The position numbers and the translations under genes are program-made. A stretch of DNA of 64,000 nucleotides from Lachnospiraceae bacterium (GTDB lineage: Bacteria > Bacillota > Clostridia > Lachnospirales > Lachnospiraceae): positions 186,001 through 250,000 of the forward strand of contig JAILGF010000071.1 of NCBI GenBank assembly GCA_024696945.1, given 5' to 3'. The notes under the pieces are model-generated. The model was not told the DNA's origin. It searched no databases and was given only the letters and a program-made list of their open reading frames with translations. This document shows, in pieces, positions 32,803 through 53,081 of the stretch. Position 1 is the first letter of the stretch; the number at the start of each line of letters is the position of its first letter.

Positions 32803-32930
32803 TGACGGCTCCTTTATTTGAATATAGTTTGATCATACTTTGATTTTACTTTTTAAGTATATCATTAAAAATACTAAATGTATAGATTGCAATTAATGAT
32901 TTTTACTTGCTAATTCATAGGGATTTATGG

Positions 32931-33006
32931 TATTATATAACAAAGATGCGAAGCATCGTTTTATTACCGCGGAAACGCAGAAGGCATTTTCGCGGTAACG
33001 TTGACA
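32931..33006 (+). repeat. Two-hairpin leader element, copy 1 (before hisA)
   Basis: Starts with a -10-like TATTATATAAC, then hairpin 1 (GATGC-GAA-GCATC, 32945-32957) and hairpin 2 (32966-32996, stem ACCGCG.../...CGCGGT), ending near TTGAC. The hairpin-2 stem base pair that is A-T at 52513 is C-G here, a compensatory change. A possible -35 TTGCTA lies at 32907-32912. It is 27 nt upstream of the hisA start. Confidence 0.8.
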
Positions 33007-33032: not shown

Positions 33033-33767
33033 ATGAGAATTTATCCCGCTATCGATATCAGAGGAGGCAAATGCGTAAGGCTTCGCCAGGGTGTGTTTGC
33101 CGACATGACAATATATAACGACGATCCTGTAAGTGTTGCATTGGGCTTTAAGGAAGCCGGAGCCGAATACATCCACGTAGTAGATCTTGACGGAGCACTG
33201 GAAGGATACAGCGTAAATGCTGAGGTTATCTCAAAGATAGCCAATGAAACCGGACTCCCGGTGCAGACCGGCGGCGGTATCAGGACGTTGGAGAACATCG
33301 AAACAAAGCTTAAGGCAGGAGTGGCCAGGGTTATCATCGGTACTAAGGCTGTTAAGGAGCCTATGTTTATGAAGGCAGCTCTTGACAAATTTGGTGCTGA
33401 ACACATAGTGGCAGGCCTGGACGGAAAATTTGGAAAGGCTGCTGTCGCAGGCTGGGAAAAAGAAAGCGAATTCGATATTATTGATCTGGCATTGAAATTC
33501 AAGGGTTACGGCTTAAGGACAGTCGTTTATACCGACATTTCAAGGGACGGTATGCTTACAGGTCCCGACTATGATTACACTTCAAGGCTTGTAAACGAAA
33601 CAGGACTTGATATCATCGCATCCGGCGGCATAGGATCGGCGGAGGATATTGACAGAATAGCCGAAAAGGGTGTCGAAGGAGTTATTACCGGTAAGGCTAT
33701 CTATGAAGGAAAGATCGACCTAAAGGAAGTACTGAAGAAATATAGGAATACACCATCAGCCGACTGA
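33033..33767 (+). CDS. hisA: ProFAR isomerase
   Basis: HisA performs the Amadori isomerisation of ProFAR to PRFAR on a TIM barrel. The 244-residue protein has the catalytic Asp in [10 protein letters not shown], the phosphate-binding GGGIR and ASGGIG loops, and the second Asp in [10 protein letters not shown]. The ATG at 33033 with AAGAGG upstream is the family start; longer in-frame starts run into the two-hairpin element and are rejected. It begins the second histidine unit. Confidence 0.96.
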
Positions 33768-42414: not shown

Positions 42415-42443
42415 TTGTAAATATATTGTGATTAAGGTATAAT
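42415..42443 (+). promoter_or_regulatory. Sigma-A promoter joined to two-hairpin element copy 2
   Basis: TTGTAA (42415-42420), 17 bp, TATAAT (42438-42443). The predicted start of transcription falls at the 5' edge of hairpin 1. Confidence 0.75.
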
Positions 42444-42509
42444 ATAACAAAAGATGCGAAGTATCTTTTGTTACCGAGAAAACACCGGAGGCGTTTTCGA
42501 GGTGACATT
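42438..42509 (+). repeat. Two-hairpin leader element, copy 2 (before esterase)
   Basis: After TATAATATAAC, hairpin 1 (42446-42472) has a 12-bp stem around GAA with one G-U pair. Hairpin 2 (42473-42503) has ACCGAGAAAAC pairing imperfectly with GTTTTCGAGGT. The element ends GTGACATT, about 48 nt before the start codon. Confidence 0.82.
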
Positions 42510-42556
42510 AATTTATGCAGAAACATAAAAAATGAGAGGATTATCAAGAAAATAAG

Positions 42557-43480
42557 ATGATGCATACAAATGAAAAACTAATGAAGGCTCTTAAAGCTGT
42601 TAATTTCATTTCGGGAAAATCTATGACGGAGTCTGAGCTAATAAAACACCGTAAGCTTGTTGAATGGGTCGGACGTATGGCTGCACCTAAGGGGGATGTA
42701 AGGATCAAATCGTTTATGATTGGAGAAATGCCTTGCGAAGCCATAAAACCTGATTATGCACATAACCCTTCGTACTGCGTGCTTTATGCTCATGGAGGAG
42801 GATATATTGCAGGTGGCTTAGACTATTCAAGAATTCTTGGAGTAAAAATGGCGATCGCAACAGGCTTTACAACGTATTCATTTGCGTATCGTCTGGCGCC
42901 GGAGCATCAGTACCCTTCAGCGCTGGAGGACGGGCTGAAGATCTGGGATTATCTGGTAAATGAAAAATATTCACCCGATCATATCATTTTGGCAGGGGAT
43001 TCAGCAGGAGGAAATCTTGCACTTTGCCTAGTGCAAAGACTGATGTCTGAGGGAAAACCTCTTCCAAAGGCACTTATTCTTTTCAGCCCGTGGACCGATA
43101 TGACGGAAACTTCAGAGACCTATGAGATTAATAAGGACATTGATCCGATACTTTCAAGGGATTATGTTTTAAATGCTGCAGTGGCATATACAGGCTGCAA
43201 AGAGGACGGAGATATCATTCTTTCAGATCCGAAGTTTAGCCCGCTAAACGGAGATCTGAAAGGCATGCCTCCTGTATATATAATGGCAGGCAGAAACGGT
43301 ATACTGCTTAATGACAGCATAAGACTAAAAGAAAAACTGACCGAAGCCGGAGTAAGGGTAAAGCTTGATATAGAGGAAAAGGGCTGGCATGTTTATCCTC
43401 AGATGCCGATACCGATGGCGACACGGGCAATGAAGAGACTTGCAAAGCATGTATCCGAAATCATTTATGGAAACAAATGA
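42557..43480 (+). CDS. Alpha/beta hydrolase, HSL-type esterase
   Basis: A 307-residue intracellular esterase of the hormone-sensitive-lipase group. The oxyanion motif is HGGGYIAGG and the nucleophile elbow is GDSAGG, with an Asp in DPILSRDYV and a late His in GWHVYPQ. It heads a cassette with an acyltransferase-like gene (8 bp beyond its stop) and a zinc-ribbon membrane protein, suggesting ester chemistry on a shared, unknown substrate. The ribosome binding site is poor, with AAGAAAA upstream of the ATG. Confidence 0.9.
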   Translation: MMHTNEKLMKALKAVNFISGKSMTESELIKHRKLVEWVGRMAAPKGDVRIKSFMIGEMPCEAIKPDYAHNPSYCVLYAHGGGYIAGGLDYSRILGVKMAIATGFTTYSFAYRLAPEHQYPSALEDGLKIWDYLVNEKYSPDHIILAGDSAGGNLALCLVQRLMSEGKPLPKALILFSPWTDMTETSETYEINKDIDPILSRDYVLNAAVAYTGCKEDGDIILSDPKFSPLNGDLKGMPPVYIMAGRNGILLNDSIRLKEKLTEAGVRVKLDIEEKGWHVYPQMPIPMATRAMKRLAKHVSEIIYGNK

Positions 43481-52474: not shown

Positions 52475-52552
52475 TTAATATAACAAAACGAGATGCGAAG
52501 CATCGGTTTTTTACCGAGAAAACGCTGAAGGCGTTTTCTCGGTGACATTGAC
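52475..52552 (+). repeat. Two-hairpin leader element, copy 3 (before rimM)
   Basis: Following TTTAATATAAC, hairpin 1 (core GATGCGAAGCATC, 52492-52504, extended by AAAAC/GTTTT) precedes hairpin 2 (52513-52543), a perfect 13-bp stem ACCGAGAAAACGC with a five-base loop. It ends GTGACATTGAC, 20 nt before the rimM start. The khpA terminator just upstream means rimM needs its own promoter, which the element's 5' box may supply. Confidence 0.85.
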
Positions 52553-52571: not shown

Positions 52572-53081
52572 ATGGAAAAAGATGATAGATTAAGGGTTGG
52601 CGTGATCACTTCGCCGCATGGGGTTCACGGAGAGGTAAATGTATTTCCGACAACGGATGATCCCAAAAGATTTAATAGACTGAAAAAAGTTTATCTGGAT
52701 AAGAAAAAGGAACTTATACAATGCGAGATAGAAAGTGTTAAGTTCTTTAAAAACATGGTAATTCTGAAGTTTGTTGGGATGGATGACCGTAACGAGCTTG
52801 AAAAATTCAGGCAGTGCGATCTGCTGATAGACAGGGAAGATGCTGAGCCTTTAGGGGAGGATGAGTATTTTATATGTGACCTTTTGGGGCTTGACATTGT
52901 TGACGAGCAGGGTGAAAAAATCGGAATCCTTAAGGACGTAATGACATCTGCGGCAAATGATGTTTACGTTGTTGAAAAGAATGACGGCAAGGAGTTATTG
53001 ATACCGGCTATCAGGGACTGTATACTTGAAACTGATCTTGAGAAACGTACCATCAAGGTACATTTGCTGCCCGGGCTGTAA
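52572..53081 (+). CDS. rimM: 16S rRNA processing protein RimM
   Basis: RimM helps assemble the 30S head and binds S19. The 169-residue protein has the N-terminal GVITSPHGVHGEVNVFPTTDDP motif and a PRC-barrel second half (EYFICDLLGLDIV). The ATG at 52572 has a weak AAGAGAA site; a GTG at 52542 lies inside the repeated leader element and is rejected. The next gene is unusually a lipoprotein rather than trmD. Confidence 0.95.
   Translation: MEKDDRLRVGVITSPHGVHGEVNVFPTTDDPKRFNRLKKVYLDKKKELIQCEIESVKFFKNMVILKFVGMDDRNELEKFRQCDLLIDREDAEPLGEDEYFICDLLGLDIVDEQGEKIGILKDVMTSAANDVYVVEKNDGKELLIPAIRDCILETDLEKRTIKVHLLPGL

Follow-up and report, generated by a model that had tools for sequence, protein, structure and literature searches.

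The insertion sequences of the IS200/IS605 family carry subterminal hairpins, have a guide sequence 5' of the hairpin foot and a target flanking the left end, and use the lagging-strand template (PMC6006769). The lagging-template bias is not universal, since a second report gives the IS605 copies of its host as free of strand bias, with 10 of 22 on the leading strand (PMC7290912). PATEs (palindrome-associated transposable elements), which are non-autonomous, are described for Haloquadratum walsbyi as lacking terminal inverted repeats, bearing palindromes near their ends and making no target duplication (PMC3119063).

Here we present a short repeated element found in a window of 64,000 nucleotides, this being the whole stretch of DNA analysed, from the MAG of a Lachnospiraceae bacterium. 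The element is mobile, non-autonomous and present in many copies within one Lachnospiraceae genus known from rumen MAGs, and it probably is a palindrome-ended derivative that moves as single-stranded DNA in the PATE manner of the IS200/IS605 group. It resembles PATEs in being too short for a transposase, in having a conserved short 5' target outside the element and in its high copy number beside few intact tnpA genes; it is unlike them in its host, a rumen bacterial genus, in its target, TATAA, with an enrichment at stop codons and, to a mild degree, at -10 boxes, in its modular forms of 70 and 150 nt with GNA triloops, and in that no same-ended IS605-type relative was found (PMC3119063). With IS608 and ISDra2 it shares subterminal hairpins, the left-flank target, a guide-like sequence and the lagging-template bias, and it departs from IS200/IS605 in having no transposase gene and in a possible guide pairing that is longer, up to 9 bp (PMC6006769). 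One guide sequence could serve both element ends, unlike the situation in IS200/IS605. REP/BIME sequences are likewise short palindromic intergenic repeats, and RAYT-like genes are found in many of the same genomes; the present element differs from REP/BIME in its one-sided TATAA target, its greater length and its modularity, and in not adjoining the RAYT-like genes. The pneumococcal BOX is, like the element here, an intergenic modular hairpin repeat in which optional middle parts lie between constant ends.

Three copies lie in the window, all on the plus strand, before hisA, an esterase gene and rimM, exactly where the initial annotation had placed a repeated two-hairpin element. All were delimited from the sequence and a covariance model, and all are of the short form. 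The rimM copy (52484..52552, +) is 69 nt long and runs from CAAAAC to ACATTGAC; the TATAA target to its left (52479..52483, +) is host sequence, the TAA of which pairs with a TTA of the element in most copies. In the fold, hairpin 1 (52485..52510, +) consists of AAAAC/GTTTT around GATGC-GAA-GCATC, and hairpin 2, which is the right-end hairpin (52513..52543, +), has the perfect 13-bp stem claimed for it. The rimM gene (52572..53080, +; PF01782, E 6e-24) starts 19 nt 3' of the element. At hisA, a promoter-like pair (32907..32936, +), composed of a -35 TTGCTA (32907-32912) and a -10 TATTAT (32931-32936) with a spacer of 18, is followed by a TATAA target (32936..32940, +) that overlaps the last base of the -10, by the 65-nt copy (32941..33005, +) and, 27 nt 3' of it, by the start of hisA itself (33033..33750, +; PF00977, E 1e-78); the reported change of a stem pair from A-T to C-G in this copy, with pairing kept, was borne out. 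The third copy (42448..42512, +), also 65 nt and with the right end ATTAAT, stands behind a TATAA target (42443..42447, +) and a promoter-like pair (42415..42443, +) with -35 TTGTAA (42415-42420), -10 TATAAT (42438-42443) and a spacer of 17. About 44 nt downstream is an alpha/beta hydrolase (esterase-like) gene (42557..43460, +), with ATG at 42557 or 42560 (PF07859, E 1e-47 for the frame from 42560).

The three copies have in common a layout of TATAAC, a GATGC-GAA-GCATC (or GTATC) hairpin, a hairpin of the ACCGAG... type and a GTGACATTGAC-like end. Within the window, GATGCGAAGYATC with zero mismatches occurs only at these three plus-strand sites, and the ACCGAG-type arm with up to three mismatches gives 23 matches against 7.0 expected, six of the 23 being both arms of the three copies. 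Against the covariance model of the core, which covers 62 positions and was built from 12 seed copies, they score 74.7-85.0 bits, which is no independent test because all three are among the seeds; the additional copies elsewhere in the genome do provide one. Their folds are better than those of dinucleotide shuffles both as DNA (z -3.6 to -6.9) and as RNA (z -4.5 to -6.7); in the hisA copy, the outer helix described below is absent from the DNA fold. At gathering scores Rfam had no match to the window, and for one long copy it returned two matches, both with E>1 and neither at gathering score, in agreement with the earlier remark that no described family could be recognised. In the open-licence literature no such repeat was described for Butyrivibrio or Lachnospiraceae among the matches listed.

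Apart from matches of the covariance model, the counts of copies, ends, contexts, orientation, outer helices, promoters and targets reported here come from fuzzy pattern scans, with genes taken from a home-made ORF caller and not from curated annotation; for loops, ends, contexts, duplications and outer helices the left end was found by its likeness to TAACAAAA or TATAACAAAA, which favours TAA. The element exists in two size classes, of about 70 nt (short) and about 150 nt (long), with the ends 5'-CAAAAC...GTGAC(A/T)TTGAC-3'. The long form adds two hairpins, (AA)GATATCCCCCACC...GGTGGGGGGAGATC(TT) and TTTCAGGCGGGG...CCCCGACTGAAA, within the same outer helix, and the folded top strand accordingly shows one left-end hairpin in the short form and three in the long form, plus the right-end hairpin. 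In 61 short and 35 long copies the right end reads (A/T)TTGAC, which was outside the search word, with no strong motif beyond it. There are no terminal inverted repeats, and palindromes lie near both ends, as PATEs are defined.

Hairpin 1 had initially been described as a GATGC-GAA-GCATC core; the core stands, and the hairpin usually extends further, with an outer helix TAACAAAA/TTTTGTTA around GATGC-GNA-GCATC. The loop under the GATGC-GCATC stem is GGA in 64, GAA in 45 and GTA in 4 of 160 copies, that is, a GNA triloop; GNA triloops, and the GCGAAGC hairpin, are very stable in DNA. Hairpin 2 has a GA/GA internal loop in 46 of 68 distinct rows, and some of the others have pairs in its stead, such as GA/TC. 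Directly 5' of the right-end hairpin is an internal GTTTTGTTA, which pairs with the left end and the target TAA; all nine pairs of the resulting outer helix, TAACAAAAC/GTTTTGTTA, are formed in 98 of 141 copies. Two-sided changes in this helix number 27, compared with 10.5 in shuffles that leave the kinship among copies in place (maximum 19 in 1000), and L152, L039 and L262 are clear single cases. In the hairpins of the 68 distinct core rows, two-sided changes are seen at 10 pairs, compared with 4.4 in shuffles of the same kind; with the partners slid by one column there are also 10 such pairs, with 29% of cells paired versus 88%, and the 12 seed rows alone show no covariation beyond shuffles.

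That the stems covary speaks for a different reading, in which the element is an RNA-level module (a leader, intercistronic or 3' hairpin) kept for mRNA stability or regulation, in whatever way it spread, and its coding-strand bias reflects RNA function. The ratio of G-T wobbles to A-C mismatches, 39:19, points the same way; the excess is mild, and mutation bias could also produce it. Taken with the evidence on insertion sites and orientation given below, including that from sites in relatives, and with the lack of an Rfam match, which also counts against it, we hold this RNA-level explanation to be unlikely.

The target is sharply defined. TATAA stands immediately before the left end in 69 of 76 copies in which that end was located by CAAAA(C/T)AGA alone, with the flank unused, a count that repeats the target count without the TAA-favouring search. 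In the 61 short and 35 long copies it is present at 89-100% per position in the left flank, where TAA was within the search word, and C is the first element base. At four tandem joints, TTTGAC is followed by (C/T)AAAA, so that TTGAC occupies the place of TATAA; it follows that the element brings the first C/T and does not bring TATAA. What had been listed as a "TATAATATAAC box" belonging to the element is the host -10 together with the TATAA target. In 138 copies, target duplications of four bases or more do not exceed those in shuffles; three-base flank identity at offset 0 occurs in 17 copies against 12.9 shuffled (maximum 16 in 300 shuffles), the exception among 18 combinations of length and offset, 17 of which were within shuffles.

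These properties bear on the idea that the repeat is a MITE with terminal inverted repeats mobilised by a DDE transposase, or a rolling-circle derivative of the IS91/Helitron kind. Small size, many copies and non-coding content are compatible with either, and a hairpin near the 3' end without duplication also fits IS91/Helitron types; against a DDE MITE stand the lack of a terminal inverted repeat and of any clear target duplication, and against IS91 the finding of a Y2 transposase (PF04986) in only 1 of 24 genus genomes, with no element near that locus. We therefore regard an origin of this kind as very improbable.

Among 76 copies outside called ORFs, 18 have the target TAA as stop codon of the gene on their left, compared with 20 among 695 intergenic TATAA sites (11 of 87 copies overlap a called ORF and were excluded from the gene-context counts). 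Under another definition of stop-codon landing the figures are 33 of 138 copies and 88 of 1010 controls. Some copies lie directly behind a -10-like box, as an RNA-level module might; a good -35/-10 pair ends just 5' of the junction in 16 of 105 non-stop copies, compared with 70 of 922 controls at the same score. This association is mild; the link with promoters that the window shows is therefore not general, and the mildness argues against the RNA-level explanation, as does the occurrence of copies at any transcript position. Copies are found also after stop codons, between operon genes and between convergent genes, and a general role as a shared 5' UTR control element, one of two functions first proposed, is not upheld.

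Sites without the element were found in relatives: 7 of 7 at hisA, 11 of 11 at rimM and 10 of 10 downstream of pgi, where 2 of the 10 retain TTATAA. A model search of 30 relative stretches, from these three loci and one other site, gave a single match, with E 0.087 and on the opposite strand. The copy in genome G006 that lies between genes we take, from reading them, to be those for ATP synthase subunits c and b has no counterpart in any of the 5 relatives read, which carry TGTAA around the stop codon; at a second operon site, in G012, 4 of 4 relatives are without the element and one of the four shows TATAA. Most element-free sites are without TATAA itself, and that few show it is due to the divergence of the relatives. 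Being missing from the sister sites compared, the element is young at the hisA and rimM loci of the window, and its absence there from all relatives aligned counts both against a shared 5' UTR control element and against a conserved RNA-level module. On the other side, copies are apparently common to two species each at the same place in two cases (L066/L067 and L065/L079), as retention for an RNA function would have it.

Of the 7 element-free relatives aligned at hisA, 6 have a -35/-10 pair, spaced by 17-18 nt, in the corresponding position, and the seventh has the -10 only; with this older -10 in the relatives, the element landed about 4 nt behind the hisA -10 and did not bring the promoter. 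Of the other function first proposed, a promoter-carrying mobile repeat, the mobility thus stands (many copies, sharp ends, element-free sites in relatives, no Rfam match), and the promoter has to be given up, as the promoter-like pair occurs in relatives lacking the element and TATAA is the target. The only near-identical empty site (98%), in G016, has TTTAACAAAATAGAA at the joint, representing neither a clean insertion nor a clean excision; it may have arisen by deletion and not be a site that the element never entered. A stretch with permease-like genes (L029/L314; G000 C186 and G016 C172), 98% identical in two species that are much more diverged at the other sites compared, has the element in one of them only and is a probable recent transfer.

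Orientation was compared with GC skew in 60 stretches from five genomes (1.0 Mb), which were chosen around known high-scoring copies and are not a random sample: 81 of 87 copies run along the skew, against 509:417 for non-coding TATAA sites (P 4e-15), 13 of the 87, at locus edges or far from genes, being counted for orientation and not for context. In the genome of the window, the figure is 20 of 23, with 23 of its 40 model matches examined. GC skew usually marks the leading strand in Firmicutes, and if it does so here, with replication direction taken from GC skew and gene strand, the TATAA-bearing strand is the lagging-strand template. Within tandem gene pairs, sense copies exceed antisense copies by 37:2 (of 49 short) and 16:3 (of 27 long), compared with 276:216 for control TATAA sites, and tandem operons on the lagging strand, in which fork direction and transcription separate most cleanly, hold only about 1-3 copies. 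The sense excess is what an RNA-level module would show, and selection against antisense insertions may also play a part. Between divergent or convergent genes, however, 17 of 21 copies, and 7 of 8 in the window's own genome, again follow the skew (together 24 of 29, P 0.0017); transcription cannot explain this bias, as either orientation is sense to one gene, and it weighs against the RNA-level reading. With an orientation that is strongly non-random and stems that covary, the element also does not behave as the plain MITE or REP to which random orientation without covariation would have pointed. Both properties are explained at least as well by replication-coupled single-strand transposition as by RNA function. 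From genomes only, such a replication-strand signal gives an inexpensive means of telling single-strand transposition from RNA selection for any bacterial repeat. The element also cautions that a hairpin "leader" repeated upstream of unrelated genes need not be a riboregulator.

The sequence, copies, ends and target, the lack of clear duplication, the element-free sites, the skewed orientation and the conserved pairing are the data from which we infer a single-strand mechanism with its cut sites, a guide and an enzyme acting in trans. A trans-acting HUH tyrosine transposase (Y1) would cut after TATAA at the left end and after the terminal TTGAC, and the excised strand would be joined to the lagging-strand template 3' of a further TATAA, without target duplication. 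The likely guide is the internal GTTTTGTTA, given its pairing with both the left end and the target TAA. TATAA, frequent both in -10 boxes and at stop codons (...TA TAA), would stay intact 5' of the insertion, and insertions at these places would hence become mRNA leaders, tails and intercistronic hairpins while leaving genes unbroken; the transcribed leaders, for example at hisA, are probably by-products. More tentatively, the element may represent an undescribed single-strand lineage whose fold includes its own target (TAA followed by CAAAAC, with the internal GTTTTGTTA), whose pairing guides targeting and whose preference for TATAA steers it to stops and -10 boxes in a "do no harm" fashion, adding hairpin leaders and tails at forks and moved in trans by an HUH enzyme, perhaps of RAYT type. 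If true, this would be a clear case of a target choice that spares promoters and stop codons while giving host genes structured RNA, in a common rumen bacterial family.

Candidate enzymes were sought in the genus genomes, which are mostly incomplete MAGs. The Y1 domain PF01797 gave 25 matches, in 12 of 24 genomes, with an element match within 1.5 kb on either side of 0 of the 25 loci; TnpB (PF07282) was present in 7 of the 10 genomes of the 24 in which it was sought, with no such gene bracketed by element copies. Among 34 wider loci (18 Y1, 15 TnpB and one Y2) there were three scattered element matches, none bracketing such a gene. As no TnpA, TnpB, RAYT or IS91 gene at the loci searched in the genus genomes is bracketed by the ends of the element, membership of the IS200/IS605 type is unproven.

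Of the 15 genus genomes with the element, 10 have RAYT-like Y1 genes (210-265 aa), and of the 9 that lack it none has (one-sided P 0.0015, a value that ignores kinship and completeness, both of which confound it). This co-occurrence favours the view that the element is of the REP kind and owes its dispersal to a RAYT (TnpA-REP) transposase resident in the genome. Against it, at least 7 of the 11 RAYT-like genes with flanks read adjoin other repeats, of the GGGGTCAGACCCC or GGGGACGGTTCT type, no RAYT-like gene is bracketed by the element, and no element match lies within 1.5 kb of the RAYT-like loci, wider stretches giving two matches at least 1.6 kb away; moreover, genome G007 (81% complete) has at least 83 element matches and no Y1 or Y2 match. 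To our knowledge, a one-sided TATAA target is not a REP feature. Dispersal by a resident RAYT thus appears improbable, and movement in the PATE manner remains the reading we prefer. The window's genome has two RAYT-like Y1 genes (L188 and L189; G000 C211 and C57), which are flanked by GGGGTCAGACCCC and GTGACATTGGGGACGGTTCT-type repeats, two further repeat families of the same genome.

The genome of the window, a 3.9-Mb MAG that is 86% complete, contains 40 model matches at E<=1, 12 of them above 74 bits and 30 at E<=0.003, a few being the reverse strand of the palindrome. In a scan of 61 genomes at E<=0.001, matches were found in 15 of 24 genus genomes, including the window's own, and in 1 of 37 others; the latter, G058, was rejected as an unrelated perfect palindrome. 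G007, G012 and G016 have at least 83-88 model matches each, and in G012 and G007 many copies lie near contig ends, which is usual for high-copy repeats. At E<=1e-4, matches among 299 family genomes were found in that of the window and, weakly, in four others; of three family matches inspected outside the genus, two were rejected as unrelated perfect palindromes. An exact-core scan of genome contigs gave 104 stretches, and the 80 listed are all "Lachnospiraceae bacterium" MAGs, several titled sheep rumen or goat omasum; these records do not confirm the name Butyrivibrio used in the initial annotation. Viral contigs had 0 exact core matches.

Right-end-only copies are also present, and these are not predicted by the single-strand transposition model, to which the tandem joints at TTGAC and the lack of a Y1 match in the copy-rich G007 are likewise ill suited. 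Of 109 right ends lacking the usual left end, 19 were followed 170 nt upstream, and a second left end was found only in tandem or decayed copies; L053 and L234 have the last hairpin only, directly after TATAA. A few right-end-only copies are fused to terminator-like hairpins: in L125 (near 305, +) and L130 (near 1565 of the minus strand) the joint with the terminator-like sequence is at GTTTTGTTACC, and looks as if the terminator had replaced the left half. A remnant, TATAATAAAACAGAGGTGACATTGAC, in L367 (1152-1177, minus strand; G006 C83) has its left end fused to its right end, with the hairpins gone.

Two sequences resemble the element in part. The third family match outside the genus, in G126, of another Lachnospiraceae genus, consists of tandem repeats whose right hairpin is similar to that of the element: at about 1498-1720 of L382, three tandem 76-nt repeats lie upstream of a gene that, by reading, is presumably pheS, and each consists of GGCGAAGCC plus a CACCGAGAAAACG...CGTTTTCGAGGTG hairpin strongly resembling hairpin 2. 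At about 1451-1560 of L069 (G013, same genus) there is a diverged relative with other stems on the same plan, comprising a TTAAGAAA/TTTCTTTAA outer helix, a GCGAAGC mini-hairpin, a right hairpin and a TTTGAC end.
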